Source: Stenotrophomonas raiganjensis (SeqCode) | Lineage (GTDB): Bacteria; Pseudomonadota; Gammaproteobacteria; Xanthomonadales; Xanthomonadaceae | DNA length: 46,880 bases | Direction: 5' to 3' | Assembly (NCBI RefSeq): GCF_030658505.1 | Contig: NZ_JAUTXR010000175.1 | Location: 1 to 46,880, forward strand | Part shown: positions 4,276-19,207 of the stretch, in pieces | Position numbering within the stretch: position 1 is the first letter of the stretch | Layout of the letters: every line of letters starts with the position of its first letter | The notes under the pieces: generated by a model | What the model saw: the letters and a program-made list of their open reading frames with translations, nothing else | What the model was told of the DNA's origin: nothing | Databases searched by the model: none | Made by a program: the position numbers and the translations under genes

Positions 4276-4627
4276 CAGCAGGAATCGTCGGGACCGGCAG
4301 GATGCTGGTTCACCGGCCACGGACAGGAAAGCCGTGACCACCGACCGCCGCAGGATGCGGCACCAATCACCAGGATGGTGGCATCACAGACCTGTGGAAG
4401 GGGCTGAGATACAAACAGGACAGACGCGGCCGCGTGCAGGATGCAACGCTACCCCCACAGCGCAGGATGCGAGGGGGCGGCAGCAGGCCGACAAGGATGT
4501 AACGATTGCCCGGTACGACACATGGCTGTGTCGCCGGGCAGTTTCATTTCCGGCGCCTGGTTTTGCCGCGGCCACCACGGGCTGATGGTGTACGGTGGCC
4601 GCTTCGCATGGAAAGGACACCCGCTGG
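4276..4627. other. Gene-free stretch between comEA-like and L,D-transpeptidase genes
   Basis: Short frames here have no family character or ribosome site. The only clear element is the hairpin at 4507-4540. Confidence 0.5.
4507..4550 (+). terminator. Rho-independent terminator-like hairpin
   Basis: The stem is TGCCCGG then CGACACA, loop TGGC, TGTGTCG then CCGGGCA, with a 2-base bulge. It is followed by the T-rich stretch GTTTCATTTC. It separates the comEA-like gene from the transpeptidase gene. Confidence 0.6.
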
Positions 4628-5713
4628 ATGCTTCCGCACCGCCCTTCGACCCTGATGCTCGCCCTGGCACTGGCCCTGCCGCTGCTGGCTCACGCGGCTG
4701 CGCCGACACCGGCTGCCAAGCCCGCTGCTGCCACTGCCGGCACCCCCGAGGTGCGCGGGCCGACCGACCTGAAGCCGGGCGAGTACCTGTGGCATCCGGA
4801 AATCTCGCCGACCGGCCCGATCGTGCTGGTGGTCAGCCTCGATGAACAGCGGGCCTACGTCTACCGCAATGGCATCGCCATCGGCCTGACCACGATCAGC
4901 TCGGGCAAGGCCGGGCACGAGACGCCGACCGGTGTGTTCACCATCCTGCAGAAGGACAAGGACCACAAGTCCAACCTCTACAACAGCGCGCCGATGCCCT
5001 ATATGCAGCGGCTGACCTGGGACGGCATCGCCCTGCATGGCGGCAGCCTGCCCGGCCACCCGGCCTCGCACGGCTGCGTGCGCCTGCCGCAGGCGTTCGC
5101 GCAGAAGCTGTTCAGCGAAACCCAGCGCGGCGATACGGTGGTGGTGGCCGATGCCAAGAGCTCGCCGATGACCCTGGCCTATCCGTCGGTGCTGGCGCCA
5201 GTGAACGCGCGTGGCCAGGCGCTGCCGGAGACGGAGGGCGGGGCGCCGGCGCAGGCCTGGTGGAACGACAGTGCGGCTCCGGCCGGGCAGGTCGGCATCC
5301 TGGTCAGCCTGCACGACCAGCGCCTGTACGTGCTGCGCGATGGCGTGATGATCGGCGAGTCGCCGCTGAAGGCCGACGCGCTGCCGGCGTTCCAGGGCAC
5401 CACGCTGTTCGTGATGGGGCAGGGCTACAGCGATACGCCCAGCCCGCTGGACGTGAACCAGCGCCTGCACCAGTGGACAGCCTATCCGCTGCTGGGCCAG
5501 GACCGTGCCCAGGCCACCCCGGACCTGTTGGCCACGCCCTCGCTGCCGATGGCGCTGCCGGCCGATTTCGCCCGCCAGCTGTACCAGGTGCTGGTGCCGG
5601 GCACGACCCTGCTGGTGACCTCGTTGCCGGCGGTCCGCCCAAGCCCGGCTGAATCCGGAATGCAGCCGGTCTTGGAATCCGAGCCGCCAGGGTCCACCCT
5701 CAAGGGCAACTGA
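4628..5713 (+). CDS. L,D-transpeptidase (YkuD domain) with degenerate second copy
   Basis: A 361-residue exported protein: signal peptide 1-24, Ala/Pro linker, then a YkuD L,D-transpeptidase domain at about 65-175. The catalytic signature is complete: H137 in ALHGG and C150 in SHGCVR. L,D-transpeptidases form 3-3 peptidoglycan cross-links or attach proteins to peptidoglycan through DAP in the periplasm. Residues about 221-330 repeat the beginning of the YkuD fold (ILVSLHDQRLYVLRDGVMIG mirrors the first copy) but lack the His and Cys motifs. ATG 4628 is chosen because it begins the signal peptide. The next gene, 17 bases downstream, is another transpeptidase-family protein. Confidence 0.82.
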   Translation: MLPHRPSTLMLALALALPLLAHAAAPTPAAKPAAATAGTPEVRGPTDLKPGEYLWHPEISPTGPIVLVVSLDEQRAYVYRNGIAIGLTTISSGKAGHETPTGVFTILQKDKDHKSNLYNSAPMPYMQRLTWDGIALHGGSLPGHPASHGCVRLPQAFAQKLFSETQRGDTVVVADAKSSPMTLAYPSVLAPVNARGQALPETEGGAPAQAWWNDSAAPAGQVGILVSLHDQRLYVLRDGVMIGESPLKADALPAFQGTTLFVMGQGYSDTPSPLDVNQRLHQWTAYPLLGQDRAQATPDLLATPSLPMALPADFARQLYQVLVPGTTLLVTSLPAVRPSPAESGMQPVLESEPPGSTLKGN

Positions 5714-5730
5714 GTCCCCTCGTTGTGCCC

Positions 5731-6456
5731 ATGACTGCATCCCGCCTGTGCCGGCTGGCCGCGTTCGGCCTGCTGGCGACCTCGGCCAGCGCCCCGGCGC
5801 TGGCACAGACGCCCGCCCTCGCCACCAGTGCCGATGATCTGGCTGCCCTGCTGTCGCGCAGTGCGCCCAAGGCCGACCGCCACGTGTTGCAGCTGGCGGC
5901 GCACGCCATGCGCTGCGCGCTGCAGCGGCCGGAGCTGGGCATCAATGGTGATCGCCTCAGCGTGATCGATTATTCGCGGCCGTCCACCGAGCCGCGTCTG
6001 TGGGTGTTCGACCTGGCCCACCAGCGCCTGCTGTTCGAGGAATGGGTGGCGCATGGCCGCAACAGCGGTGAGAACCGCACCGAACACTTCTCCAACCGCG
6101 ATGGCAGCTTCATGTCCAGCCTCGGCGCGTTCACCGCGCAGGAGACCTACATGGGCGGCAACGGCTATTCGCTGCGCCTGGCCGGGCTGGAGCCGGGCTT
6201 CAACGACCGCGCACGCGAACGCGCCATCGTCATCCACGGTGCGCCTTACGTGAACCCGGCCACCGCGCAGCTGCAGGGGCGATTGGGTCGCAGCCTGGGT
6301 TGCCCGGCGGTGCGCCTTTCGGTGGCAAAACCACTCATCGATGCGTTGCGCGGCGGCACGATGGTGTTCGCCTATTACCCCGACCAGGACTGGCTGAAGC
6401 ACTCGCAGCTGCTGGGCGGCGAGTGCGGTGGCCAGGGTACGCTCGCCACGCGGTGA
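5731..6456 (+). CDS. Murein L,D-transpeptidase catalytic-domain (YkuD_2) protein
   Basis: A 241-residue exported protein with signal peptide 1-26 (ending ALAQ). It belongs to the second L,D-transpeptidase-like family (YkuD_2): VIHGAPYV supplies H169 and SLGCPAV supplies C191, spaced as in that family. It probably acts on periplasmic peptidoglycan, but activity has been shown for few members. Start ATG 5731; a GTG two codons earlier is possible. It lies 17 bases after the preceding transpeptidase gene, so the two are probably co-transcribed. Confidence 0.8.
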   Translation: MTASRLCRLAAFGLLATSASAPALAQTPALATSADDLAALLSRSAPKADRHVLQLAAHAMRCALQRPELGINGDRLSVIDYSRPSTEPRLWVFDLAHQRLLFEEWVAHGRNSGENRTEHFSNRDGSFMSSLGAFTAQETYMGGNGYSLRLAGLEPGFNDRARERAIVIHGAPYVNPATAQLQGRLGRSLGCPAVRLSVAKPLIDALRGGTMVFAYYPDQDWLKHSQLLGGECGGQGTLATR

Positions 6457-6490: not shown

Positions 6491-7099
6491 ATGAACATCG
6501 ACTCCCTGCTGCACACTCCGAGCCAGGTGATCTCCCGCCTGGACTATCGCCGCGAACGTTGGCGCAACGGCCTGGGTTGGACCCGCGAGATCCTGCGCCT
6601 GCCGGCACAGGGCGATGACTGGGCGCTGCGCCTGTCGGTGGCCGAGATCGAGCAGGACGCCGCGTTCTCCGCTTTTCCCGGCGTGGAGCGCGAGCTGGTG
6701 CTGCTGCAGGGCAATGGCGTGCGCCTGCGCTTCGACAATGGCCGGGTGGCCGAAGTCCTGCCGCCGCATGGGCGGGTGCGCTTTGCGGGTGAGGAAGCAC
6801 TGCACGGCGAACTGGTGGACGGCACCACCCACGACTTCAACCTGATGTGGAAGCGCGAGCTGCTGCAGGCCGAACTGCTGCATCGGCCGCTGGTGGGCGC
6901 GATGTTCTTCTTCTGCGAACCGGGCGTGGCCTGGGCGCTGCACCTGTTGGCCGGGCAGGCCGAATTTGGTGATGACAGTGGATTGCCGCCGATGCAGGCC
7001 GGCGATACCGCGTGGTTGTCGGCCGGTGCGCGGCAACGGCATGCAGTGCAGGGGGGCGGCGAGCTGTTGGCGATCCGGGTGACTGCGGCGGAGGAATGA
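6491..7099 (+). CDS. HutD/Ves-family cupin protein
   Basis: A 202-residue protein of the HutD/Ves family, a bicupin fold associated with histidine utilisation or environmental stress; the enzymatic role is unsettled. Family features seen: an N-terminal WRNGLGWTREIL stretch (about 25-36), DWALRLSVAEIEQDAAFSAFPG (44-65, the classic HutD block), and the HDFNLMW segment near residue 120. No hut genes are nearby, so a histidine-degradation role is not supported by context. It starts 34 bases after the YkuD_2 gene on the same strand. Confidence 0.82.
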   Translation: MNIDSLLHTPSQVISRLDYRRERWRNGLGWTREILRLPAQGDDWALRLSVAEIEQDAAFSAFPGVERELVLLQGNGVRLRFDNGRVAEVLPPHGRVRFAGEEALHGELVDGTTHDFNLMWKRELLQAELLHRPLVGAMFFFCEPGVAWALHLLAGQAEFGDDSGLPPMQAGDTAWLSAGARQRHAVQGGGELLAIRVTAAEE

Positions 7100-7130
7100 T
7101 GCGTCGGCGCCGCGTCATGGTGCGAACCAA

Positions 7131-7204
7131 GGTTCGCACCCACCAGAAAGCGGTTCGCACCCATTAGAAAGCGGTTCGCACCCCCCAGGTGGCGGTTCGA
7201 ACCC
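7131..7204. repeat. Tandem repeat of 21-base period
   Basis: GGTTCGCACCC-like units begin at 7131, 7152, 7173 and 7194, an exact 21-base spacing. The intervening bases (CACCAGAAAGC, CATTAGAAAGC, CCCCAGGTGGC) are partly conserved. The first unit also pairs with the preceding TGCGAACC (7121-7138) as a perfect inverted repeat. It lies between convergent genes. Confidence 0.75.
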
Positions 7205-7218
7205 GTCGAATCCGTCCT

Positions 7219-7240
7219 GTAGATTCACGCCATGCGTGGA
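7219..7240 (+). repeat. SMAG/REP palindrome
   Basis: GTAG head followed by TTCACGC CAT GCGTGGA, with one mismatch in the stem. Adjacent to the 21-base tandem repeat. Confidence 0.65.
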
Positions 7241-7250
7241 CGCGGCAAGC

Positions 7251-8855
7251 TCAATACACATCCCGCCGATAACGCCCGGCCAGCAGCAACGCTTCCTTGC
7301 CGTCCGCTCCCAGCACCTGCTCGATCACCGCATCCACCGCCGGGGCCATGCCCTGCAGGCTGCCGCAGACCAGGATCGTGGCGCCTTCTTCTGCCCACCG
7401 CTTCAACGTGGCGGCTTCGGCCAGCAATCGATCCTGCACGTAGCGATGCGCACCGCCATCGCGGCTGAATACCGCATCCAGCCGCGACAGCGTACCGTCG
7501 GCCAGCATCGCGCGCAGTTCTTCACCGAAGTGGAAGTCGTGCGTGGCGGTGCGCTCGCCGAACAGCAGCCAGGTCCTGCGCGCACCCTGGCGCGCGCGTT
7601 CGTGCAGGTGGGCACGCAGGCCTGCGATGCCAGTGCCGTTGCCGATCAGCAGCAGCGGTACATCGGAGGGGACGCCACGGAAATTGTCGTTGCGGCGCAG
7701 GCGTAGTCGCACCGGTTCGCCGATGGCCGCGTGGTCGCACAGCCAGCCGCTGCCGATGCCGGGCGTGCCATCGGCGCGCAGTTGGCGACGCAGCAGCAGC
7801 TCCACGGCTCCGTCGGCCATCACCGAGGCGATCGAGTACTCGCGATGCGGCAGCGGTTGCAGGGTCGCCAGCAATGCGGGCAGATCACCCGGGGGAACCA
7901 ATGAGGGCAGGTGCGAGCGCGCGACGCGGGCCAGCAACGTCTGCCCGTCATCCAGCACGGTATCCGCATCGAAGCGTTGTGCGTCCAGCCAGGCACGCAC
8001 GGTGTGCGATGCATGCTGCGGGCCGATCTCGGCGATGTCACCGGCCTGCCACTGCGCATCTGCATCGGCCGGTGGCTGCAGGCGCAGCCAGTACACCGGG
8101 CCGCCCGGGCTGCCTGGATTCAGATGTGCGCGCTGCAACAGCGTCCATGGCTGGTACTCGGCCGGGCTCCAGTCGGGCAGTTCGCTGGCGCCACCGCCGA
8201 GTTGCCCCAGCAGCTGCTGCCAATGCCGCAGTGCGCCCGGATCGGCGTTGTCGACTTCAATCGCGTCGAACAGCGGATGTGCGCCGTGCTGGCGCAGCCA
8301 CTGGTCGAGCTGGTGGCCGAATCCGCAGAAGTGGCCATAGCTGCGGTCGCCCAGCGCGAGCACGCCGTAATGCAGGTGCTGCAGCGAAGGCGGCGAGGAC
8401 ATCACACCGCGCAGGAACGGCAGTGCATGATCGGGTGGGTCGCCTTCACCGGTGGTGCTGGCAATGAACAACGCACGCTGGCTGCCGGCCAGCAGCGTGG
8501 CGTCGACGTCATGCAGTCCGCGTACACGTACCGGCATGCCGGCACCGCGCAGGGCCTCGGCACTGCGTTCGGCCAGTTCGCGGGCAAAGCCGGTCTGGCT
8601 CGACCAGACCAGCAGGATCGGCGCGCTATCGCCGGACGCTGCGTCGTCGCGTGGACGACCGCGCCACCACAGTGCAGCGCAGGCCAGCGCATACAGCAGC
8701 ACGGCGAGCGCTGCGACCTGCAATTGCCGTGCCGGAGGTGCGCCCTGCCACCAGGTTTCGCCGAGGTGCAGGCGCAACAGCGCCCCGCCGATGACGGCCA
8801 GTGCGACGAGCACAACGGCATTGCCCAGCAGCGCGCGCGAAGGCCGTCCGCTCAT
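7251..8855 (-). CDS. Membrane-anchored flavodoxin/FAD/NADPH reductase (sulfite-reductase flavoprotein-like)
   Basis: A 534-residue diflavin reductase with an N-terminal membrane anchor (helices about 11-30 and 46-64). It carries a flavodoxin domain (FMN loops SSQTGFA 85-91 and STTGEGDPP 133-141), an FAD-binding ferredoxin-reductase domain (REYSIAS) and an NADPH-binding domain (GNGTGIAGL, CGSLQGM), ending in the SiR-FP-like YRRDVY. It should move electrons from NADPH through FAD to FMN on the cytoplasmic side. It is last in an operon with PepSY-TM, DUF2271, DUF4198 and ApbE genes, and its start overlaps apbE by 4 bases. Without a sulfite reductase hemoprotein nearby, a role feeding electrons to the PepSY membrane protein is more likely than sulfite reduction. 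Confidence 0.82.
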   Translation of the reverse strand: MSGRPSRALLGNAVVLVALAVIGGALLRLHLGETWWQGAPPARQLQVAALAVLLYALACAALWWRGRPRDDAASGDSAPILLVWSSQTGFARELAERSAEALRGAGMPVRVRGLHDVDATLLAGSQRALFIASTTGEGDPPDHALPFLRGVMSSPPSLQHLHYGVLALGDRSYGHFCGFGHQLDQWLRQHGAHPLFDAIEVDNADPGALRHWQQLLGQLGGGASELPDWSPAEYQPWTLLQRAHLNPGSPGGPVYWLRLQPPADADAQWQAGDIAEIGPQHASHTVRAWLDAQRFDADTVLDDGQTLLARVARSHLPSLVPPGDLPALLATLQPLPHREYSIASVMADGAVELLLRRQLRADGTPGIGSGWLCDHAAIGEPVRLRLRRNDNFRGVPSDVPLLLIGNGTGIAGLRAHLHERARQGARRTWLLFGERTATHDFHFGEELRAMLADGTLSRLDAVFSRDGGAHRYVQDRLLAEAATLKRWAEEGATILVCGSLQGMAPAVDAVIEQVLGADGKEALLLAGRYRRDVY

Positions 8856-9823
8856 GTGTCCTGCTCGCCGAGAAGGCGCTGGAAGGCGCTGCTGAGGACT
8901 TCCTGCGGCCCATCCACGGCACGCTGCAGGTAGCGTGCGGCCAGCCCTTCGCGCTCGGCCAGTGCCATGCCCCGTTCACGGCCGAGCACGGTCAGCGCGG
9001 TGGCCCAGGCATCGGCGTGCATGGCGTCGTCGGCGACCACCGTCACCGCTGCGGCGACCTGGCGCACTGGTCTGCCGGTACGCGGATCGAGGCTGTGGCT
9101 GTAAGCCTCGCCATCGGCCTCGTACTGGTGCCAGCGATCCCCCGAGGTGGCGACGGCCCTGCCATCCAATGCCAACACACGCGGCGGCGTTGCGGTGCGC
9201 GCGTCTTCTTCCGGTGCCGATTCCACCAGCACGCGCCATGGCTGGCCGTCCGGCTTGCGGCCGTAGCCGGCCAGTTCGCCGCCGACTTCGATCAGCGCCG
9301 CAGCAATGCCCTGTGTGCGCAGCCAGGCTGCGACGTGGTCGACGCCGAAGCCTTTGGCGATCGCAGAGAGGTCCAGTTCCAGGCCGCCCGGCTGCAGCAG
9401 CGCGTCGCCGTGCCACTGCAGGCGCTGCCAACCGCAGCGATCGCGCGTGGACTGCAGGAGCGCCGCATCCGGTTGGCGGCGTTCACCGGCATGTGCACCG
9501 AAGCCCCACAGTGCAACCAGCGGACCGACGGTGGGATCGAAGGCGCCGCCACTGGTGGACGCGATCGCCTGCGCGCAGGCCAGAACGTGACGGGTTTCGG
9601 CCGGCAGCACGCACCATTGGCCGGCGTTGGTACGGTTGTAACGGCTGAGGTCTGAACCGGGTTCCCAGGTACTCATCTGCGCGACCACCTCATCCAGCCG
9701 CGCCTGGATGCCGGCATGCAGCGGGTGCAGGTCACGCTGGCGCGACGCGACCAGCGACACGCTCCAGGTGGTGCCCATGGTGGTGCCACCGAGGCGGGCG
9801 ATGTCGAGCAGGGGATCGGTCAT
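8852..9823 (-). CDS. apbE: FAD:protein FMN transferase (ApbE family)
   Basis: A 323-residue ApbE protein, which attaches FMN from FAD to Ser/Thr of target proteins. Visible family blocks: TMGTTWSV near the N-terminus, MSTWEPGSDLSRYNR, GGAFDPTVGPLV, the FAD-binding DLSAIAKGFGVD, ALIEVGGELAGYG, and SLDPRTGRPV plus DAWATAL near the C-terminus. Start ATG 9823 gives MTDPLLDIARLGG; neither this start nor the upstream ATG at 9874 supplies a signal peptide or lipobox, although most ApbE proteins are periplasmic. It overlaps the reductase gene by 4 bases and lies 55 bases after the DUF4198 gene. Confidence 0.86.
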   Translation of the reverse strand: MTDPLLDIARLGGTTMGTTWSVSLVASRQRDLHPLHAGIQARLDEVVAQMSTWEPGSDLSRYNRTNAGQWCVLPAETRHVLACAQAIASTSGGAFDPTVGPLVALWGFGAHAGERRQPDAALLQSTRDRCGWQRLQWHGDALLQPGGLELDLSAIAKGFGVDHVAAWLRTQGIAAALIEVGGELAGYGRKPDGQPWRVLVESAPEEDARTATPPRVLALDGRAVATSGDRWHQYEADGEAYSHSLDPRTGRPVRQVAAAVTVVADDAMHADAWATALTVLGRERGMALAEREGLAARYLQRAVDGPQEVLSSAFQRLLGEQDT

Positions 9824-9878
9824 GGTGGTGTACCGCAGGCGCAATGCCGGGGCCTGCCCGGCATCGCGGTCCACGTCA

Positions 9879-10682
9879 TTACTGCGGCAGCACTTCCAGC
9901 GTGGCGACGTAGCTCAGGCGGCGCTTGGCGGCCTGCTTCACCGACGTCTTGTTGTCCTCGGTGCCGGTCTCCAGCCAGTACATGCCGGCTTCCGGCCAGG
10001 TCACCTTGATCTCGCCCTTGGCATCGCTGGTCAGCTTCAGCTCGTCCTGCGCGTTGCGGTAGCGGGTGGCGCCACGCACGATCTCGAATTCCAGGCCGGC
10101 GGTCGGCTTGCCATCGACCAGCACGCGGAAGGTGGCTTCCTCGCCGGCGAACAGATCATTCGGGTGGCCGACCGCGACCAGCTCGATGCCACGGTTGGTC
10201 GGCTTCAGCGCGGTGTCGTTCGGCGCGCCGTTGGTGACGAAGGTCTCCACGCGGCCGACCGACTGGCTCACTTCCAGCTTCTTCGCGTCCTTCGGCAGTT
10301 CGCCGAAGGTAGCCACGCTGCCGCGCCAGCGCTTGCGCTCGCCGTTCTGCTCGTAGGTGGCGAACAGGCCGTCATTGACCGACGCAATGCGGTAGGTGCC
10401 AGTCTGCTTCAGCTCGACGTCGAACACGCTGCGGTACTTGCCGGTGGCGGCGTTCTGCGGCTGCACGGTGCTGCCGTCCGGCGTGGTGATCACCACCGAT
10501 TCCAGGCGCAGCGGCACGTGGTTGAAATAGAACAGGTCGTTGGAGACCGCACCGTCGACGGTGATCCACGGCGCGTTGCCGGCGATCACGGTCTGCGAGG
10601 GCAGCAGCCAGGCCTTGTGGGCCAGGGCGGAGAAGGGAAGGGCAGCGGCCAGGGCGGCGGCGAGGACGAGCGTGCGCTTCAT
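9879..10682 (-). CDS. Exported DUF4198-domain protein
   Basis: A 267-residue periplasmic protein with a clear signal peptide (1-21, ending FSALA). The mature chain would begin HKAWLLPS, the aromatic/His start typical of DUF4198 proteins. The rest is beta-rich (Ig/NikM-like), with a block around [20 protein letters not shown] and another at [16 protein letters not shown]4198 members are linked to metal uptake loci, but no biochemical function is fixed. The start is at 10682; an upstream ATG at 10718 would bury the signal peptide. It lies 75 bases after the DUF2271 gene, with a palindromic repeat between them. Confidence 0.78.
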
Positions 10683-10721
10683 GCGGAAGACTCCAGTGGA
10701 TGCAGGGTGATGCGGCAAGGA

Positions 10722-10762
10722 GAAGGGGATTACGACTTAATCCCCTCCGTCCCCTTTTCAGG
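10722..10762. repeat. Xanthomonad intergenic hairpin repeat, copy A
   Basis: GGGGATTA, loop CGACT, TAATCCCC is a perfect 8-base stem, followed by TCCGTCCCCTTTT. The same sequence recurs at 39821-39860. The right end abuts the DUF2271 stop codon. Confidence 0.75.
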
Positions 10763-11276
10763 GTTTGACGGACAGGGTGACCTGGCCCAGTTCGGTGGCG
10801 CCCTGCGCCTTGCCGTTCTGCGCGGCGGTGGCCGGCCAGGTGAAGGGGATCTTCAGCAGCTCGCGGCCGCCGACTTCGCGCACCGCTTCCACCACCAGGG
10901 TGTAGTTGCCCGGGGCCAGCTGCTTCAGCGCCGGCTGCCTGTCGTTGAACGACAGCGCGTGCTTGCCGGCCGGGCGGGTCGGGCCGGTCACGCCATCCAC
11001 CGGAACCTGCAGGGTGCGGCCGCTCTTGCGCCACCACTGGCGCAGGTCGGGCAGCCACTTGGTGCCGTGGCCCTCGCTGTTGCTGGTCTGCTGGTACCAG
11101 ACCGACAGGTTGGCGGCGACTTTCTGGTCAGCGCCTTCCAGCCACACCGCCACATACGGGCGGTGGTACTCGGCCACGTTGAGCTTGGGCACTTCGACAT
11201 TGATGTCGAGGGTGGCGGCATAGGCCGGTGAGGTGGCCAGCAGGCCGCTGAGGGCGATGGTCAGGGTGACGCGCAT
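10758..11276 (-). CDS. Exported DUF2271-domain protein
   Basis: A 172-residue periplasmic protein: signal peptide 1-20 (ending SPAYA), then one DUF2271 beta-sandwich domain. Family features seen are the opening LDINVEVPKL, the PYVAVWLEGAD strand, WYQQ, the WLPDLRQWWRKSG block (75-87) and the closing NYTLVVEAVREVGGRE. DUF2271 proteins often accompany PepSY and ApbE genes; their role is not established. ATG 11276 is chosen because it begins the signal peptide. It lies 26 bases after the PepSY gene in the same operon. Confidence 0.8.
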   Translation of the reverse strand: MRVTLTIALSGLLATSPAYAATLDINVEVPKLNVAEYHRPYVAVWLEGADQKVAANLSVWYQQTSNSEGHGTKWLPDLRQWWRKSGRTLQVPVDGVTGPTRPAGKHALSFNDRQPALKQLAPGNYTLVVEAVREVGGRELLKIPFTWPATAAQNGKAQGATELGQVTLSVKP

Positions 11277-11302
11277 GGGGCGGCTCCGGAAACGAGGGAA
11301 TG

Positions 11303-11941
11303 TCAGTGGATCAGCAGCAGGGCGATCAGCAGCGGGATCATCAGGCCGAGGCCGACCAGCGGCCAGGTCATGCGCCGCTGCCGCGCATGCAGGTGCAGCA
11401 GGAACAGGCCGGTGATGCAGAACACCAGGCAGGCCACGGCGAACAGGTCCAGGAACCAGCCCCACGCCGGGCCGGCATTGCGGCCCTTGTGCAGGTCGTT
11501 GAGGTAGGACACCACACCGCGCGAGGTCGACTCGTACTCCACCGCGCCGGTTTCGCGGTCGATGCTCAGCCAGGCGTCGCCGCCGGGGCGCGGCAGCGAC
11601 AGGTAGATCTCCTCGGCCGACCACTCGGCCGGGCGTCCACCGATGGCGATGCCCAGCTGCGTGTCCAGCCATTGCCGGGCCGGACGCGGGATCGGCGCGT
11701 TGCCGTCTTCGCGCGTGCCGAGCTGGCCGAGCAGATCGGCCGGCAGTTCCAGATGCTGGTTCTGCACCTGCGGCCTGGCCTCGATCTTTGCGGCATGGTT
11801 GAGGGTCAGGCCGGTCACCGCGAACAGCAGCATGCCGATCAGGCACACCGCCGAGCTGATCCAGTGCCACTGGTGCAGCGTGCGCAGCCAGAAGCCACGG
11901 CTCTGTTGCTGCTGCACGGTGGAAGAGGCAGGACGGCTCAC
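11303..11941 (-). CDS. PepSY-associated transmembrane protein
   Basis: A 212-residue inner-membrane protein. A hydrophilic N-terminus leads into a first membrane helix (about 28-48) carrying the [19 protein letters not shown] pattern of PepSY-TM proteins. A periplasmic PepSY-like region (about 60-155) follows, then two helices (about 163-184 and 190-211). Histidines near the helix ends (HQWH, NDLHKG, LHLHARQ) could bind heme. Related Pseudomonas PepSY-TM proteins such as FpvG take part in reducing ferric siderophores. It is the first gene of the operon running to the diflavin reductase and has its own promoter with a Fur-like site. Confidence 0.8.
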
Positions 11942-11971
11942 GGCACGGTTCGGGGCGGACGGGGACTGCCC

Positions 11972-12000
11972 ATTACATCATTGATGAGAATAGCTCGCAA
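11972..12000 (-). promoter_or_regulatory. Sigma70-type promoter of the PepSY-ApbE operon
   Basis: On the minus strand, TTGCGA (-35), a 17-base spacer and TGTAAT (-10), about 31 bases before the PepSY start codon. Confidence 0.55.
11985..11999 (-). promoter_or_regulatory. Fur-box-like site
   Basis: The 7-1-7 site reads TGAGAAT A GCTCGCA on the plus strand. One half matches the Fur consensus well, the other weakly. It lies within the spacer and -35 of the promoter, where Fur would block RNA polymerase. Confidence 0.42.
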
Positions 12001-12041
12001 TTGCGTATCGTTCTGTATCCCTGGAGTAGGTCTGGTGGGTT

Positions 12042-12063
12042 GGCGGCCAGCGGCCGGCGCTAC
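12042..12063 (-). repeat. SMAG/REP palindrome
   Basis: On the minus strand: GTAG head followed by CGCCGGCCGCTGGCCGCC. First of three palindromes between the TonB receptor and the PepSY operon. Confidence 0.7.
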
Positions 12064-12069
12064 CGATCG

Positions 12070-12092
12070 GCAGATCCACGCCATGCGTGGAT
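12070..12092 (+). repeat. SMAG/REP palindrome (GCAG variant)
   Basis: GCAGATCCACGCCATGCGTG: an ATCCACGC/GCGTGGAT stem with loop CAT. It has the same core as the copies at 38530 and 43613. Confidence 0.65.
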
Positions 12093-12098
12093 GAAGCG

Positions 12099-12118
12099 GT
12101 GCCGACCAAGGTCGGCAC
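12099..12118. repeat. REP-like palindrome
   Basis: GTGCCGACC aa GGTCGGCAC: a perfect 9-base stem directly after the previous palindrome and upstream of the receptor stop. Confidence 0.55.
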
Positions 12119-12140
12119 CCACCACAGCAGGGCGCGGCGA

Positions 12141-14561
12141 TCAGAACTTCGCGTTCAACGAAATCCAGTAGCTGCGGCGCTGGTCCTTGGTTGCGTAGTC
12201 GTCCACGCAGCTGAACTCACTGGGATTGAGCAGCAGGCACGACTGCGAGACGAAGTCCTTGTCGAACAGGTTGTTGACCCGTGCGTTGACCGTCAGCCAG
12301 GGCGTGGCCTTCCAGCTGCCGCCCAGGTGGAAGATCGTGTAGTCCTCGTAGTAGCGGACATGGCGGGCGCCGGTGCTGTCGATCAGCGTGTCACGATAGC
12401 GGTCGTAGCGGCCCTCGCCGATCAGCGACAGGCTGATCGCATCGTTGATCTGCCAGTTGAGGCTGGCGTTGGCCATGTGCCTTGCCGGCGTGGTGCCTGA
12501 GATCGGGCGTCCCTTGTCGGGGCCGCTGGTCTGCTCGCTCCTGGTCCAGGTGTAGTTGCCGCGCAGTTGCAGGGTGTCGAGCAGGTCGACGTGGGCGGCC
12601 AGCTCGGCACCCCGCGTTTCAGCCTTGTCGATGTTCACGCTCTGGGTGAAGGCGCTGTAGCCCAGTGCGGCCCAGCCCGGGCCGATGTCCACGCAGTAGC
12701 CGCTGCCGGCCGCTGCCACTTCGCAGTTCGGGAAGGTGCCGCCGCTGGCGATCTTGTCCTCGAACACGTTGATGAAGCCGGTGACGTTGAAACCCCAGCG
12801 CTGGCCTTCGTAGTACGCGGCCAACTCGTAGTTGGTGCTGGTTTCCGGCTTCAGGTTGGGCGAGCCCACCAGCGGCAGCACGCCCTGGCCACCGAAACCG
12901 GTGATGCCCGGGAACAGCTGGTCCGGTCGCGGGGTCTTGTAGCCGGTGCTGATACCGCCCTTGAAGGTCCACGCATCGCTGGCATTCCACACCAGGTAGC
13001 CGCGCGGGCTGAGATGGCTGCCGAAAATGTTGTGGTCGTCGTAGCGCAGGCCGACGGTGGCGGTGAGGGTGTCGGTCAGCGCCCAGTTGTCCTCGGCGAA
13101 CAACGCCCACATGCGGTGCTTCTGCTTGGTGTTGCTGCGATAGCCGGCGCCGTCCATGCCGAACACGCCGTCGATCATGTCGGTGTCGTTGTACTGGCCG
13201 CCAACGGTCAGCTTGTGCGCGCCGAAGTCCAGGTCGAGCATCGTGTCGAGCACGTAGCCTTCCAGTTCCATGGTGCGCAGCGGGCGTGGCAGGAACGCCT
13301 GCAGGCGCGCCATTTCGCTCGGGTTGAGTGCGGCCAGGGCATTGCCACGGTCGGCCGCGCAGTTGTTGGCCGCCCCGGTGCGACGGCAGACGTCATTCCA
13401 CAGGGTCTGCAGGTTGGCACGCTCGTCCAGGGTCAGCGGCAGCGAGCGGCCGAGATTGCTGCTCTTGCTGTGGGTCAGCGAGGTCTGCCAGGTGCCGAAG
13501 CTGTAGCGGCCCTGGTGGGTCAGCGACAGCTGGTCGCGCTCGTAGCGCTGGTAGGCGGTGTAGCCCACGCGCGGCTGCACTACGCGGCGGGTGACGGTGT
13601 CAGTGCCGTTCGGGTTCGGAATGACCGCGTTGCCGACACGCCACAGGCTGGCCAGGCTGTCCAGCGTGCCGGTCTGGCCTTCGCTGTTGTCGTACTTCTG
13701 CCGCGACACGTCGTAGTCCAGCCACAGCTCATGGTCATCGTTGACGCGGAAGTCCAGGCGCACGCCGGTATTCCAGTTGGTGTTGGCCACCGACTTGCCA
13801 CCGCCACCGAAGCCGATGCTGCGCTCCCACGGCGTGCCGTCGGGCAGGGGCAGTGCATCCCATTCCGGGTTCGATGCCTTGGCATCGTAGTAGCTGCCGC
13901 GCACGGCCAGGCTGAGGCGATCCTTCAGCAGCGGGCCGCTCAGGTACAGGTCGGTGGTGCGTGCATCGCCGAACTGGTCGTCCTGCTGCACGGTGAAGCC
14001 CTGGGTGAGCGCGCCGTGCCAGCTGTCCTGGTTGCGGCGGGTGATGATGTTGATCACGCCGCCCATCGCATCCGAGCCGTACAGGGTGGACATCGGGCCG
14101 CGCACCACTTCGATGCGCTCGATCGCATCCAGCGGCGGCAGGTAGGCGAACTGGCCGCCGCCGAAGTTGTTCGGGTACAGCTGGCCGACATTGCTCTGGC
14201 GGCGGCCGTCGATCAGCACCAGGGTGTATTCGGAGGGCAGGCCGCGCATCGAAATGGTGGCGCGGCCGTTCTTGTCGGTGGCCTCCAGGCCGACGTCGAT
14301 GCCTTCGACATCGCGCAGCGCGTCGACCAGGTTGGTGTACGGGCGCCTGCTCAGTTCCTCGCGGCTGACCACGCTGATGCTGGCCGGTGCGTCGACCACC
14401 TTCTGTTCGAAGCCGGAGGCGGTGACCACGACTTTGTCCAGGGTCTGCGGCGCGCCGGAAACGTCAGCGTGGGCGAGGACAGGGGCGGACAGGGCCACCA
14501 GCACGGCGTGGGTCAGCAGGCGGCGGGGCAGGGACGAACGGACACGATGGCGCTGGGCCAT
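12141..14561 (-). CDS. TonB-dependent siderophore receptor (FepA/CirA type)
   Basis: An 806-residue outer-membrane receptor: signal peptide about 1-32, TonB box region KVVVTASGFE, plug domain about 50-165 (ISVVSREEL, RGPMSTLYGSDAMGGVINIIT), then a 22-strand barrel ending in the BAM signal ...LNAKF. Plug motifs and length fit the FepA/CirA/IrgA group of catecholate receptors, and C-terminal loops contain the usual paired cysteines. Ligand is inferred as a ferric catecholate. Start ATG 14561; an earlier ATG at 14618 lacks a signal peptide context. It follows a small membrane-protein gene under a Fur-box promoter and precedes the PepSY-ApbE operon, which may reduce the imported iron. Confidence 0.85.
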   Translation of the reverse strand: MAQRHRVRSSLPRRLLTHAVLVALSAPVLAHADVSGAPQTLDKVVVTASGFEQKVVDAPASISVVSREELSRRPYTNLVDALRDVEGIDVGLEATDKNGRATISMRGLPSEYTLVLIDGRRQSNVGQLYPNNFGGGQFAYLPPLDAIERIEVVRGPMSTLYGSDAMGGVINIITRRNQDSWHGALTQGFTVQQDDQFGDARTTDLYLSGPLLKDRLSLAVRGSYYDAKASNPEWDALPLPDGTPWERSIGFGGGGKSVANTNWNTGVRLDFRVNDDHELWLDYDVSRQKYDNSEGQTGTLDSLASLWRVGNAVIPNPNGTDTVTRRVVQPRVGYTAYQRYERDQLSLTHQGRYSFGTWQTSLTHSKSSNLGRSLPLTLDERANLQTLWNDVCRRTGAANNCAADRGNALAALNPSEMARLQAFLPRPLRTMELEGYVLDTMLDLDFGAHKLTVGGQYNDTDMIDGVFGMDGAGYRSNTKQKHRMWALFAEDNWALTDTLTATVGLRYDDHNIFGSHLSPRGYLVWNASDAWTFKGGISTGYKTPRPDQLFPGITGFGGQGVLPLVGSPNLKPETSTNYELAAYYEGQRWGFNVTGFINVFEDKIASGGTFPNCEVAAAGSGYCVDIGPGWAALGYSAFTQSVNIDKAETRGAELAAHVDLLDTLQLRGNYTWTRSEQTSGPDKGRPISGTTPARHMANASLNWQINDAISLSLIGEGRYDRYRDTLIDSTGARHVRYYEDYTIFHLGGSWKATPWLTVNARVNNLFDKDFVSQSCLLLNPSEFSCVDDYATKDQRRSYWISLNAKF

Positions 14562-14707
14562 GGCAGTAACCTCGAAGGATGCAGGGTGGTGCGATGCCAG
14601 GCGCAAACGGCGCGGCATGCACGGGGAGGCCCGGTCAGGGGCGGCAGGGATGAAGCAGGCAGCGGCGTGCGGGCGCGACCGCGCAGGCGGTCACGTCGGG
14701 CCTTGGA

Positions 14708-15109
14708 TCAGGCGAGCGGCGGCGCCTGGCCGCGTTGCTGGCGACGCCCGGGCGCGTCGGCCCAGGGCGTGTCCGGAGCGGCCAGCGGCCAGTCCGGGCG
14801 CACGCCGGGCATGGCCGGCGTGGCGGGTACGAGTTCAAGTTCGGTACGCAGCCACTGGCTGGCCAGCAGCGGCGGCGGCGGAGCCTTCTCGGCCGCTTTC
14901 ACCGGGCTGGAGGCATAGCGGCGCAGCTTGGCCGGGGCTTCTTCCTGCAGCGGGCCTTCGCCGCCGCGTTTTTCCAGCGGCATCTGCACGGCCAGTCCGG
15001 CCTGGGCCTGTGGCAGCAATGGCAGGGTCCCCAGCAGCAAGGCCAGCATCGCCACCCACGCCAGCAGGCTGGCCAGCGCAGGACGCTGGCCGCGCATGGC
15101 GGTGCCCAT
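14708..15109 (-). CDS. Small single-pass membrane protein upstream of TonB receptor
   Basis: A 133-residue protein I do not recognise. It has one hydrophobic segment (about 12-36, LLAWVAMLALLLGTLPLL) and then a Pro/Ala-rich extracytoplasmic region with charged clusters (EKRGGEG, KLRRY, EKAPPPP) ending PGRRQQRG. ATG 15109 is chosen because the upstream ATG at 15151 adds an arginine-rich stretch. It is the first gene after a strong promoter with an overlapping Fur box, and the receptor gene starts 146 bases downstream. This suggests iron-regulated expression and a possible accessory role. It may be a leader gene of little conservation. Confidence 0.6.
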   Translation of the reverse strand: MGTAMRGQRPALASLLAWVAMLALLLGTLPLLPQAQAGLAVQMPLEKRGGEGPLQEEAPAKLRRYASSPVKAAEKAPPPPLLASQWLRTELELVPATPAMPGVRPDWPLAAPDTPWADAPGRRQQRGQAPPLA

Positions 15110-15200
15110 CTTGCGATGGATGAGTGGGCGAGGGCGAAGCGGGCGCAGCAAGCAGGGGTCCCCAAGGGCTGCCGGCAGCGACCGGCATCAACGGGGCGTG

Positions 15201-15229
15201 ATTGTAATGAGAGCTGTTAGCTGTTGCAA
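15201..15229 (-). promoter_or_regulatory. Sigma70-type promoter of the FepA/CirA-type receptor operon
   Basis: On the minus strand, TTGCAA, a 17-base spacer and TACAAT: a near-consensus promoter about 92 bases upstream of the small membrane-protein gene. Confidence 0.65.
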
Positions 15230-15244
15230 ATGAGAATGATTGCC
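15226..15244 (-). promoter_or_regulatory. Fur box
   Basis: GCAAATGAGAATGATTGCC on the plus strand matches 13 of 19 positions of the Fur consensus. It overlaps the -35 of the promoter just downstream, so iron-loaded Fur would occlude it. Confidence 0.65.
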
Positions 15245-15272
15245 AAATTGTCGCGGGTCGGCCAGAGTTGGC

Positions 15273-15950
15273 TCAGACCTCGCTCCAGCGCCGCAGCAGA
15301 TTGTGGTAAACGCCGGTCAGCTGCAGCACCGCCTCGGCGTCGCCGCCGGTCTGGCGCAGGCGCTCGATCGAGCTGTCCATCTCCCAGAGCAGGCGCCGCT
15401 GCACGTCGTCGCGGATCATGCTCTGCACCCAGAAGAACGAGGCCACGCGCGCGCCGCGGGTGACCGGATTGACCTTGTGCAGGCTGCTGGACGGGTACAC
15501 GATCAGGTCGCCAGCGGGCAGCTTCACTTCATGCTCGCCGTAGGTATCGCTGATGATCAGCTCGCCGCCCTCGTACTCGTCCGGATCGGACAGGAACAGG
15601 GTGCAGGAGATGTCCGAGCGCAGCTGTTCGCCGTTGCCCAGGTTCATCACCGCGCCATCGACATGGAAGCCGTAGGTGCCGCCGCCGGTATAGCGGTTGA
15701 AGCGAGGTGGCAGGTACTTCAGTGGCAGCGCGGCGCTGAAGAACAGCGGGTGCCGGGCCAGTGCGACGAGGATGATCTCGCCGAGCTCGCGGCGCAGCGG
15801 CGAAGCCTCGGGCAGCTGCTGGTTGTGCTTGGCCTGCGCCCCGAGATGACCGACGGTCTCGCGGCCATCGGTCCAGTCGGCGGCATCCAGCCGGCGGCGG
15901 AACCCGGCCACCTGCTCAGCGCTGAGAATGTCGGGGATGTGCAGCAGCAT
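15273..15950 (-). CDS. piuC: PKHD-type Fe(II)/2-oxoglutarate hydroxylase (PiuC/YbiX family)
   Basis: A 225-residue hydroxylase of the PiuC/YbiX family. It has the facial triad H96 and D98 (FHVDGA) with H158 (SSLHKV), and R168 for 2-oxoglutarate. The family sits beside Fiu/PiuA catecholate receptors (fiu-ybiX in E. coli, piuA-piuC in Pseudomonas), as here, and is thought to process imported siderophores, though no substrate is proved. ATG 15950 gives exactly the family length; the frame is open upstream, but that part overlaps the Sel1 gene. It lies 10 bases after the Sel1-repeat gene. Confidence 0.88.
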
Positions 15951-15960
15951 GCGGAATTCC

Positions 15961-16680: not shown

Positions 16681-16701
16681 GGGGTGAGTATCGCCGGAAA
16701 C

Positions 16702-16730: not shown

Positions 16731-16748
16731 TGGTGGAGCGCAGTTACA

Positions 16749-19055
16749 TCAGAACTTCACGTTCAGTGCCAGGGTGGCCGAGCGACCCGGGGCGATGCTC
16801 GCGTAGTGCGAGGCATAGGCCTTGGTGAAGTAGGTCTTGTCGGTCAGGTTCTGCACGTTGAGCTGCAGGCTGATGTTGTCCTGGATCGCGTAGCTGGCCA
16901 TCGCGTCGAAGCGGGTGTAGCTGGCAATCCACTTAGTGTTGGCGACGTCACCGTACTGCTTGTCCGAGTAGAACGCACCGGCGCCGATGGTCAGGCCGAT
17001 CGGGAAGCGGTAGGTGGTCCACAGGTTGGCGCTGTGCTTGGCGGTGTTCGGGAACTCGTTGCCGTTGTTCGGCGACGGCACGTAGACGTTGGACGGGCAG
17101 GTGCGGCCCACCGGTGCGCCACAGACGAAACCGTTGTCCTTCAGTTCCGAGTCCAGGTAGGTGTAGCCGCCGTACAGGCTCCAGGCATCGGTCAGCTGGC
17201 CGGTGAAGCCCAGCTCGAAGCCGTTGATTTCCTTCTTGCCGGCGTTCTGGCTGGTGCCGTTGTCGATGGTCACGCGTGCGTTGTTCATCACGGTGTGGAA
17301 GATCGCGGCAGTCAGGTTCAGGCGCTTGTCGAACAGGTCCCACTTGGTGCCCAGTTCGAGATTCCTGGTGTCCTGCGGCTTGAGGTCGGCCACGGCGGCG
17401 CTCAGGCCGTCCGAACCGTCGCCACCGTCCATGCCCGGCGGGGTCGAGGAGGTGCCCCAGGACAGGTAGATGCTGCCGTTGGCGGCCGGCTTGAACACCA
17501 CGCCGGCCTGGTAGTTCAGGAAGTCGTTGCTGTTGCGCACGCGGGTCGGTGCCTTGCCGGCCACCGGAGTGGTCAGGGTGGTACGGAAGTCGTCGTAGCG
17601 CAGGCCGAGGTTGATCATCCACTGCTCATTGAGCTCGATGGTGTCGAACACGTAGGCCGAGGTGGTCTTGGTGCGCTGCTCGACGTCCAGTGCCTTGTCG
17701 CTGCGATAGACGATCTGACCGGCCGCCCACGGATCGTTCGGGTTCGGATTGTTGAAGTCGGTGCAGTTGTAGCCGGTGGCCGCGCCGGACACCTGGCAGC
17801 GAGTGCTGTTGGCGCTGTTTTCAAGGGGATTGGCGGTGCCCGGCGACATCAGGTAGCTGCCACGGGTCATCTTCTCGTCGCTGTACTCCACGCCCGCGCT
17901 GTAGCTGTGCTTGAGCGCGCCGGTCTGGAACGCACCGGTCAGGCCCAGCTGGTCGGCGAAGCTCTTGACGTCGACCGCACGGGTGTTGGTGCGACGCCAC
18001 AAGGTGCCGTACAGGTTGGGGTTGCCCTTGCTGTCGTCCGGCTGGGTCCACAGGTAGTCGTTGCTGGTGTTGCCCAGGCGCGCGATGTTGCGCAGCTTGT
18101 GGCCACCGAAGTCGTAGCTGGCATCCAGGGTGCTGATGTCGGCGCGGGTGCGCTGGAAATCACGGTCGACCAGGCCGTAGTAGTTGTTGCGGTCCGGCAC
18201 CATCGGCCGGCCATCGCCGTTCTTGGCCACGTTCGGGCCGCTGGAGAACGGATTGCTGTAGGGGAAGCCACCCGCGTCCGGCAGGTCATCGCTCTGCATG
18301 TGGTAGTGGCTGGCGATCAGCTGCGCCGGGCCGTTCAGGCCGAACGCGATCGACGGCGCGATGCCCCAGCGGCTGACGTTGGCGGCGTCGCGGCCGGCGA
18401 TGTCCGATTCGTGCTTCATCAGGTTCAGGCGGGCGGCGATGCCATCGCCCAGCACGTAGTTGGCGTCCACGGTGCCGCGCGCGTAGCTGTCGGTACCGAT
18501 GCCCATGCTGGCGCTGGTCTCGTTCTTCAGCTTCGGCGTCTTGCTCACCAGGTTCAGGCTGCCACCACCGGAGTCACGGCCGCCGTAGGCCGAGCTCGGG
18601 CCCTTGACCACTTCCACCTGCTCCAGGTCGAAGATCTCGCGGGTCTGCGAGCCGACGTCGCGCAGTCCGTCGACGAACACGTTGCTCTGCGAATCGAAGC
18701 CACGGATGAACGGGCGGTCACCGGTCGGGTTGCCGCCTTCGCCGGCACCGAAGGTGATGCCCGGCACCATGCGCAGCGCATCCTGCAGGTTGGTCGCACC
18801 GGTTTCGGCGATCAGCTTCTCCGACACGATCGACACCGACTTCGGGGTGTCCAGCAGCTCGGCGGTGAACTTCGGCGAGGACGGGTTGAACCAGCTGCCG
18901 CGCACCTGCACCTTGTCCAGCTCGGTGGCGTTGCGGGAACCGGCGTCGGCGCCGTCGGCAGCCTGCGCAGCCAGCGGAGCAAAGCCCGCGGCCAGGGTGG
19001 CGGTGGCGAGCAGGGAAACGCGCGGGGCGTGCTTGCGGGACGTGATGTGGGTCAT
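16749..19055 (-). CDS. fiu: Catecholate siderophore receptor (Fiu/PiuA type)
   Basis: A 768-residue TonB-dependent receptor: signal peptide about 1-32, TonB-box-like ELDKVQVRGSW, plug about 60-175 with KSVSIVSEKLI, RPFIRGFDSQSN and GRDSGGGSLNLVSKT, then a beta-barrel ending ...LALNVKF. The plug (VPGITFGAGEGGNP) and the adjoining PiuC-type hydroxylase gene fit the Fiu/PiuA group, which takes up ferric catecholates such as dihydroxybenzoylserine and is a known entry route for catechol-cephalosporins. ATG 19055 begins the signal peptide; the upstream ATG at 19187 does not. A terminator follows. Fur control is inferred from the box upstream of the preceding small gene. Confidence 0.86.
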   Translation of the reverse strand: MTHITSRKHAPRVSLLATATLAAGFAPLAAQAADGADAGSRNATELDKVQVRGSWFNPSSPKFTAELLDTPKSVSIVSEKLIAETGATNLQDALRMVPGITFGAGEGGNPTGDRPFIRGFDSQSNVFVDGLRDVGSQTREIFDLEQVEVVKGPSSAYGGRDSGGGSLNLVSKTPKLKNETSASMGIGTDSYARGTVDANYVLGDGIAARLNLMKHESDIAGRDAANVSRWGIAPSIAFGLNGPAQLIASHYHMQSDDLPDAGGFPYSNPFSSGPNVAKNGDGRPMVPDRNNYYGLVDRDFQRTRADISTLDASYDFGGHKLRNIARLGNTSNDYLWTQPDDSKGNPNLYGTLWRRTNTRAVDVKSFADQLGLTGAFQTGALKHSYSAGVEYSDEKMTRGSYLMSPGTANPLENSANSTRCQVSGAATGYNCTDFNNPNPNDPWAAGQIVYRSDKALDVEQRTKTTSAYVFDTIELNEQWMINLGLRYDDFRTTLTTPVAGKAPTRVRNSNDFLNYQAGVVFKPAANGSIYLSWGTSSTPPGMDGGDGSDGLSAAVADLKPQDTRNLELGTKWDLFDKRLNLTAAIFHTVMNNARVTIDNGTSQNAGKKEINGFELGFTGQLTDAWSLYGGYTYLDSELKDNGFVCGAPVGRTCPSNVYVPSPNNGNEFPNTAKHSANLWTTYRFPIGLTIGAGAFYSDKQYGDVANTKWIASYTRFDAMASYAIQDNISLQLNVQNLTDKTYFTKAYASHYASIAPGRSATLALNVKF

Positions 19056-19140
19056 GACTGTGGGTAGTGGCTTGGATCGGGAAAGGGCGAGCGCGAGCCG
19101 GCGCAGATGGGCATGCGGCGACAGGCGGGAAGTGGGTGCT

Positions 19141-19165
19141 GTAGAGCCGAGCCAGGCTCGGCTGG
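19141..19165 (+). repeat. SMAG/REP palindrome
   Basis: GTAG head followed by AGCCGAGCC AG GCTCGGCT. It lies between the small membrane-protein gene and the Fiu-type receptor. Confidence 0.7.
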
Positions 19166-19207
19166 CGGGAAACGCAATCAGGCGCACGGCAACGGCCGCA
19201 GGGCGCC

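Follow-up and report, generated by a model that had tools for sequence, protein, structure and literature searches.

A PepSY-like flavinylation system has already been described by Meheust et al., who proposed that it serves iron reduction and assimilation (Meheust et al., 2021; PMC8238504). Their survey looked for a PF03929 or PF16357 protein within five genes of ApbE, FMN-binding, DUF3570 or DUF2271, and it recorded 3220 PepSY clusters, 2833 with DUF2271 and 1500 with DUF4198. Experimental data exist for Caulobacter crescentus, where CC_3059-3063 rise 12- to 51-fold under iron limitation or in a fur mutant (PMC3751524), and where transposon insertions in the same genes, numbered CCNA_03155-03159, lower fitness in ethylenediaminetetraacetic acid (EDTA) (PMC12004947). 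Other PepSY_TM proteins, FoxB, FpvG and HiuB, are tied to periplasmic ferrisiderophore use, and His-held hemes have been solved in FoxB and modelled in HiuB. The locus considered here is a five-gene operon at positions 7251-11941 of a contig of Stenotrophomonas raiganjensis (NZ_JAUTXR010000175.1, assembly GCF_030658505.1), and "the window" below means the whole 46,880-nucleotide stretch that was analysed. The gene set is neither rare nor new, being of a published and widespread kind, and our analysis suggests that the operon is probably a Fur-type periplasmic ferric reductase module.

Using a Pfam search of the window, the genes were identified as PepSY_TM, DUF2271, DUF4198, ApbE and a diflavin reductase, in this order and co-directional on the minus strand, which agrees with the single direction given in the preliminary description of this DNA. 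The 4-base overlap between two genes that it had reported was confirmed as that of ApbE and the reductase (8852-8855), and the FepA/CirA-type receptor said to precede the set was found at 12141-14618, its gene ending 199 bp upstream of PepSY. The remaining gaps within the operon are 26, 75 and 55 bases, given ATG starts at 11276 (DUF2271), 10682 (DUF4198) and 9823 (ApbE); the PepSY gene starts with GTG at 11941, and the longest ApbE frame begins at GTG 9874. With PepSY, DUF2271, DUF4198 and ApbE adjacent, the locus falls within the survey's definition of a PepSY-like flavinylation system.

In the model that we favor, the membrane-anchored diflavin reductase, the proposed point of electron entry, would draw electrons from reduced nicotinamide adenine dinucleotide phosphate (NADPH). 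By analogy with FoxB, these electrons would pass from the reductase to the PepSY_TM cytochrome and across the inner membrane over His-held heme, and would then reach flavin mononucleotide (FMN) on Thr100 of periplasmic DUF2271, an attachment presumed from the DUF2271 of another species. Reduced DUF2271, or PepSY itself, could then reduce Fe(III) or a ferric siderophore imported by a TonB receptor. The N-terminal His of DUF4198 would bind the released divalent metal, nickel having been shown in one relative and iron being presumed here, and Fe(II) could be taken up through FeoB, which is encoded in the source genome. ApbE would charge DUF2271 with FMN, most likely in the cytosol before export. 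The receptor at 12141-14618 is a possible source of the ferric ligand, and a ferric catecholate is a candidate for that ligand, its one basis being the neighbouring receptors.

The distribution of the gene set was followed from two anchors. PepSY-anchored loci from named genomes (the best 80 of at least 584 confirmed PepSY matches, to which all counts of named loci below refer) were read with runs broken at gaps of 800 bases, and DUF2271-anchored contexts with runs broken at 700 bases; the named and wider sets share species, and this redundancy was kept in the counts. Among the named loci, the run that holds PepSY also holds DUF2271 in 80/80, DUF4198 in 79/80, ApbE in 73/80 and the reductase in 72/80, and the exact five-gene order recurs in 67/80. 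Over these 80 loci the five-gene layout exceeds chance. A TonB receptor stands immediately upstream in 20/80 of them, and in 15 of 18 same-genus loci (L126, L162-L178; 11-18 kb examined). In the samples of genus, order and phylum, each of which includes the source genome, DUF2271 is present in 60 of 61 genus genomes (58/58 of those of good quality) and in 37 of 121 of the order, and it scores above cut-off in 65 of 398 of the phylum.

The phylum sample gave 68 DUF2271 places above cut-off, of which 64 contexts were examined, the remaining four being of the same genus. A PepSY-DUF2271-DUF4198 core was found in 42 of the 64; ApbE lies in the run of 26 of these core loci, the reductase in that of 27 and both in 19. 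The other 22 contexts comprise four ApbE-DUF2271 fusions, 14 without any partner and four with part of the core. These counts indicate a core of three genes, to which ApbE and the reductase are frequent yet not fixed partners. The possibility raised in the preliminary description, that the five genes are rarely together, does not hold among close relatives (67/80), while in the phylum sample all five adjoin only in the 19 core loci just given.

The PepSY protein matches PF03929 at 47.8 bits (cut-off 28.8). Its AlphaFold2 model (mean predicted local distance difference test, pLDDT, 85; predicted template modelling score, pTM, 0.63) contains long helices at residues 8-48, 158-186 and 190-211, the first two of which flank a mixed alpha/beta domain. 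Histidines 23, 26, 49, 151, 185 and 212 are candidate heme ligands. In alignment A2 (n = 39), which was gathered through DUF2271 and, like A1, consists of 39 hand-picked loci, H26 and H151 occur in 39/39, H49 in 36, H212 in 34, H185 in 29 and H23 in 26. The model and A2 together bear out the earlier statement that several His lie near the PepSY helices, since the conserved ones sit near the ends of the three long helices. His conservation is higher in a closer set, A3 (n = 54), whose loci were found with patterns containing H49 or H151; the named loci were also found with patterns containing either residue, so the conservation of both is partly built in there. By the predicted topology, H23, H26 and H185 would face the cytosol and H49, H151 and H212 the periplasm, and His on both membrane sides would suit two hemes.

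The reductase consists of a flavodoxin (FMN) domain joined to an FNR-type NAD(P)-binding domain, and at its N-terminus two hydrophobic segments were recognised by eye. The flavodoxin and NAD(P)-binding domains recall CysJ, the sulfite reductase flavoprotein, while the two hydrophobic N-terminal segments set the present protein apart from it. CysJ itself was rejected as its identity, since the score against the equivalog TIGR01931 cysJ is 219.5 bits where the cut-off is 668.15. The C-terminal end of the reductase, RYRRDVY, is one that we take to resemble that of CysJ.

The preliminary description had called the DUF2271 protein one of unknown function and had cast it as a holder of ferric complexes. 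In another species, however, the cognate ApbE has been shown to attach flavin to DUF2271, the acceptor being the Thr of an [S/T]GA[S/T] motif (PMC8238504). The protein of the window carries a Sec-type signal peptide, MRVTLTIALSGLLATSPAYA (judged by eye), and is the only DUF2271 above cut-off in a profile search of the source genome; a second candidate at 21.8 bits was rejected, as it overlaps a FlgD-like frame (named from its sequence). Its motif reads TGPT in place of [S/T]GA[S/T], a change of Ala to Pro in which the Thr and the preceding Asp are retained. The conservation of this motif was assessed in 164 core DUF2271 rows (80 named, 84 wider; not made non-redundant), one of which is gapped at the motif, leaving 163. 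Acceptor position 100 is Thr in 162/163 and Ser in one, position 94 is Asp in 161/163, and position 99 is Ala in 99 and Pro in 64. Because DUF2271 is a demonstrated ApbE substrate elsewhere and the Asp and acceptor Thr are kept here, an electron carrier with covalent FMN at predicted acceptor Thr100 is proposed in place of a holder of ferric complexes.

Within the family group of the window, TGPT is found in 24 of 25 operon loci, and the lone exception (L136, TGAT) also has a lipoprotein-like ApbE. On a quick tree built from 133 ApbE rows the change between Pro and Ala takes 8 steps, and thinning the tree to 83 rows lowers this to 4. We also considered whether the motif Pro goes with a lost ApbE signal peptide: the Pro-type motif accompanies 0/16 ApbE rows with a signal peptide vs 62/116 leaderless rows, but independent tree pairs give no support to such a link, which was not adopted. 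Two other kinds of DUF2271 were seen beside the core type. ApbE-DUF2271 fusions lie beside a TonB receptor in L113-L116 (4/61 same-genus genomes) and also in L084, L109 and L112; in these fusions the motif is degenerate (e.g., GIAR[PAE]T) and lacks the Asp. A group of short DUF2271 proteins (L089-L100, L102, L108, L110, L111), most of them with a signal-like N-terminus, shares a motif like x-G-x-[TS]-G-A-S-[VI], and all five partners are missing from the runs in which these proteins lie.

ApbE itself is a clear member of its family, with a Pfam match of 275.6 bits (cut-off 25.6) and resemblance to solved FMN transferases in a PDB sequence search (5mgy, E 1.2e-67). It lacks the exported or lipidated N-terminus that is usual but not obligatory for ApbE, and no hydrophobic or signal-peptide-like stretch follows either start (ATG 9823, GTG 9874); the enzyme is leaderless and seems to remain in the cell interior, while DUF2271 has a signal peptide. 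Signal peptides in relatives were judged by eye and with a home-made lenient rule. They are absent from 66 of the 73 named operon ApbEs by eye and from 58 by the rule, and present on 7 and 15 respectively, some of the 15 being held false (R-V-L-I-P segments). The same rule gives a Sec-type signal in 80/80 DUF2271 and 76/79 DUF4198 proteins of the named loci, an earlier and cruder score having given 61/80 and 77/79; a twin-arginine-like motif was seen in 1/80 named DUF2271. With the wider set included, 116 of 132 ApbE rows were labelled leaderless and 16 have a signal peptide. The 116 include six with an unplaced N-terminus (L083, L156, and L312, L314, L317 and L322 with no usable start codon near the domain), and excluded from the 132 are the ApbE-DUF2271 fusions, most with signal-like N-termini, and L161, where a lipoprotein-like ApbE lies upstream of PepSY.

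A segment R-[VI]-[LFV]-[ILV]-P upstream of the MG[TS] motif was found in 42 of 133 ApbE rows (the pattern used was slightly wider) and in 0/16 rows with a signal peptide. It lies 25-29 residues from MG[TS] in 41 rows and 12 in L309, a probable chance match. The nearest start codon falls two codons before the segment in 17 rows, which suggests a genuine non-secreted N-terminus. The segment-bearing ApbEs (42 loci among L068-L159 and L269-L327) are leaderless and, where the record gives a name, mostly from Beta- and Alphaproteobacteria.

It was asked which proteins ApbE might modify. The assembly searched (99.91% complete, 192 contigs) encodes one ApbE, and it contains no members of FMN_bind, DUF3570, NqrB/RnfD or Flavodoxin_4, FMN_red-type substrates not having been searched. 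DUF2271 is thus the only recognised ApbE target among the families tested. A different explanation is that TGPT is unusable, that DUF2271 is not flavinylated and that the leaderless ApbE acts instead on a different protein in the cytosol. The Pro in the motif and the missing signal peptide would fit this, and so would the 2025 ApbE review, which names cytosolic ApbEs whose targets are fumarate reductases, including a Klebsiella enzyme that modifies a soluble fumarate reductase (PMC12052999). FMN_red-type proteins, outside the four families searched, have also been described as ApbE substrates (PMC11334425). However, the Thr and Asp are near invariant over the 163 DUF2271s, 64 of them Pro-type, and the Pro/Ala change takes 8 steps on the quick ApbE tree, with 5 independent pairs on starred branches, while ApbE stays in the operon. 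With the four other known substrate families also absent from the assembly, we regard this explanation as improbable.

We tentatively suggest, at somewhat less than even likelihood, that in most members the leaderless ApbE attaches FMN to DUF2271 in the cytosol and that the flavinylated, unfolded protein then threads Sec, with a conserved ApbE N-terminal segment, R-V-L-[IL]-P, located where a signal peptide would be in many Beta- and Alphaproteobacteria. Alternatively, ApbE may be exported by another route or may have another target. The survey of Meheust et al. demanded a signal peptide in only one target gene (PMC8238504), and in the literature searched, as represented by passages rather than whole texts, no discussion was found of TGPT or of a leaderless ApbE paired with an exported target. 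The pairing is a contradiction that bears on whether covalently flavinylated proteins can pass Sec, and pre-export flavinylation, if true, would be a maturation route opposite to that of the textbook periplasmic ApbE.

For DUF4198, cleavage after ALA (an AxA site; A21-H22 in the window) would give His22 as the mature N-terminus. His22 is present in 159 of 160 ungapped operon DUF4198s, which were collected with no His filter and include that of the window, and is Asp in one (L295); one further sequence was a fragment. His55 (mature 34) is kept in 138/161, with Lys or Arg in 14. His173 occurs in 47/52 of alignment A4, which holds 51 of 76 loci whose DUF4198 fitted an N-terminal-His pattern (three of 79 gave no reference), so that its 52/52 for His22 is biased by that filter. 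Apart from the signal peptide, the AlphaFold2 model is all-beta (pLDDT 88.8). The crystal structure of a distant relative, IsDUF4198, shows Ni2+ held by His1 and His18, and this protein binds Ni2+ through its N-terminal His with a dissociation constant (Kd) of 18 nM (PMC12537917). In both proteins the first residue after the signal peptide is His, and the all-beta model here corresponds to a beta-sandwich there. The second ligand may differ: mature position 18 is Trp here and in 146 of 161 operon DUF4198s, with His34 as candidate (the numbering was compared without alignment), so a second metal ligand, if any, differs or sits at another number.

Since a crystallised relative binds metal through its N-terminal His, DUF4198 is more likely than DUF2271 to handle the metal, as a periplasmic holder acting through His22. 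Of the ferric-complex holders in the preliminary description, the DUF4198 half thus gains support, with nickel as the metal bound in the relative, and the DUF2271 half was given up. PDB comparisons of the operon proteins were made by sequence. These searches did not retrieve 9GCB; the DUF4198 profile matched 9mhi-9mho (E ~1e-10) at profile positions 93-265 only, which leaves the N-terminal metal site outside the comparison. The chains of 9mhi, 9mhj and 9mhk-9mho are labelled phosphoribosylglycinamide formyltransferase, apparently in error for a DUF4198 protein, and within the aligned stretch 9mhk differs from the other 9mh chains by having Ala in place of His.

The nickel bound by IsDUF4198 bears on another reading, in which the module reduces and captures a different metal, copper or nickel, instead of iron. 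In favour of this reading, too, a Bordetella PepSY_TM protein, CrpH, supports heme-copper oxidase function (PMC13038864), and the IsDUF4198 family is linked to nickel genes in its paper (PMC12537917), where the neighbours here are of iron type, namely siderophore-type receptors and PiuC. The Trp found here at the position of ligand His18 also speaks against such a metal, as does the repression of these five gene families by Fur in Caulobacter (PMC3751524), and we consider a copper or nickel function unlikely.

Regulation by iron was addressed with a Fur test that used three consensus strings over 19 positions, with mononucleotide shuffles as control. Scores of at least 14/19 were obtained in 38 of 81 operon upstream regions vs 0.5% of the shuffles, and the corresponding sites of L249 and L264 score 13 and 15. 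In Stenotrophomonas maltophilia K279a, RegPrecise places pepSY SMLT_RS05540 and SMLT_RS05535 in the predicted Fur regulon, and these genes are numbered next to a receptor, a PKHD hydroxylase and a Sel1 gene (PMC6240677); the K279a locus was matched to that of the window by gene order only. Together with the Fur control and EDTA phenotype in Caulobacter, this prediction argues for iron. A more general reading is that of a periplasmic reductant system (e.g., thiol or quinone related) that is merely co-regulated with iron uptake. The electron chain names no acceptor, and in the literature searched ferric reduction by this type of DUF2271 was not found demonstrated. The Caulobacter data (PMC3751524, PMC12004947), the metal-binding DUF4198 relative (PMC12537917) and the ties of FoxB, FpvG and HiuB to ferrisiderophores all oppose this reading, which we hold to be very improbable.

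Several observations weigh against a Fur-controlled ferric reductase. The best Fur score upstream of the operon in the window is 12/19, at a site overlapping 11980-11998, which also scores 12 by hand count; this is close to the shuffled mean of 10.9 and indistinguishable from chance here. A promoter/terminator scan of 6900-15200 found nothing. The RegPrecise Fur regulon is a prediction (PMC6240677), and CC3060 and CC3061 are on the list of genes that go down in a zur mutant (PMC4176598). A PDB sequence search with the PepSY alignment found no relative. ApbE is absent from the run in 16 of the 42 core loci and the reductase in 15, so neither is an obligatory neighbour. IsDUF4198 preferred Ni2+ among Ni, Zn, Co and Cu, and the words "iron" and "siderophore" are absent from the main text of its paper (PMC12537917). 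To these are added the Pro of the TGPT motif and the leaderless ApbE. The ferric-reduction role put forward in the preliminary description nevertheless fits the published proposal (PMC8238504) as well as the Caulobacter data (PMC3751524, PMC12004947), and it stands with the role of DUF2271 revised.

The neighbourhood is summarized together with the operon in Table 1. Beyond the adjacent receptor, the same strand carries a PiuC/YbiX dioxygenase, a Sel1-repeat protein and a Fiu-like receptor. The top NCBIfam matches of the adjacent receptor, among those listed, are TonB-receptor models including CfrA, IreA and CirA, all below their curated cut-offs (495.6 bits against NF010012, where 924 is required), and the Fiu-like receptor scores 483 bits against the Fiu model NF007349, under its cut-off of 686. 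The region 12141-19187, with its receptors and PiuC, resembles regions linked to the uptake of cefiderocol, for which PMC12697194 names smlt1148 and cirA in S. maltophilia. An Rfam search of the window gave no match at gathering thresholds. On the plus strand at 4595-6456, two adjoining frames with HG...SHGCxR-like segments are presumably L,D-transpeptidases.

Table 1. Operon features and neighbouring genes, in positions of the window.
Feature	Position	Strand	Evidence or remark
PepSY_TM_like_2 membrane protein	11303..11941	-	PF16357 E 1e-84, also PF03929; 212 amino acids
DUF2271 exported protein	10758..11276 (frame to 11285)	-	PF10029 E 3e-51; 172 amino acids
Flavinylation motif D94-G-V-T-G-P-T100 in DUF2271	10977..10997	-	
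T100 of DUF2271, predicted FMN acceptor	codon 10977-10979	-	
DUF4198 exported protein	9879..10682 (frame to 10718)	-	PF10670 E 1e-56; 267 amino acids
His22 codon of DUF4198	10617-10619	-	
ApbE, flavin adenine dinucleotide (FAD):protein FMN transferase	8852..9823	-	PF02424 E 6e-82; 323 amino acids from ATG 9823
Diflavin reductase	7251..8855	-	Flavodoxin_1 PF00258 E 1e-25 and NAD_binding_1 PF00175 E 1e-8
Candidate Fur box GCGAGCTATTCTCATCAAT	11980..11998	-	between receptor and PepSY
CirA/FepA-like TonB-dependent receptor	12141..14618	-	PF00593, PF07715
PiuC/YbiX-type Fe(II) dioxygenase, outside operon	15273..15950	-	NF003975 355.6 bits, cut-off 180
Fiu-like TonB-dependent siderophore receptor, outside operon	16749..19187	-	TIGR01783 256.6 bits, cut-off 223.5
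HutD/Ves family protein, converging on operon end	6491-7099	+	PF05962 171.6 bits

The locus adds a Stenotrophomonas member, near universal in its genus, to the family of proposed ferric reductases already in print. The analysis sharpens the model of this family to named residues, with Thr100 of DUF2271 as the predicted flavin carrier and His22 of DUF4198 as the likely metal holder. As in the published PepSY clusters, a PepSY protein with three transmembrane (TM) helices is accompanied by DUF2271, DUF4198 and ApbE, and some of those clusters also have an NAD-binding domain or a TonB receptor (PMC8238504). What differs is the TGPT motif, the [S/T]GA[S/T] form being outside the survey's operational definition, and the leaderless ApbE, neither of which is discussed in the passages of PMC8238504 drawn on here. 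The system itself is ordinary as a kind, and these two features may be the points that a specialist would not expect.

The PepSY_TM domain is shared with FoxB, FpvG and HiuB, and the conserved His here are candidate heme ligands, while three long helices, a separate reductase and a proposed flavinylated partner distinguish the present system from them. A FoxB-type protein was taken to have at least four TM segments, and the PepSY model has three helices of TM length. To our knowledge, the FpvG partners FpvC, F, H, J and K are not DUF2271 or DUF4198. The way of working is nevertheless similar, since the Fpv machinery of Pseudomonas aeruginosa pairs an inner-membrane PepSY reductase with periplasmic FpvC, which takes ferrous iron after reduction (PMC6954188), much as a reductase and a periplasmic metal-taking protein are proposed to work together here. 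Two Caulobacter loci are among the named loci (L288, L324), and the DUF2271 motif of L288, from C. segnis, is TSPT. Among the closest described systems is CC_3059-3063 of Caulobacter crescentus, which has the identical five families in the identical order, is a Fur target (PMC3751524) and contributes to fitness in EDTA (PMC12004947), and for which, unlike the locus of the window, an adjacent CirA-like receptor is not mentioned in the passages cited.

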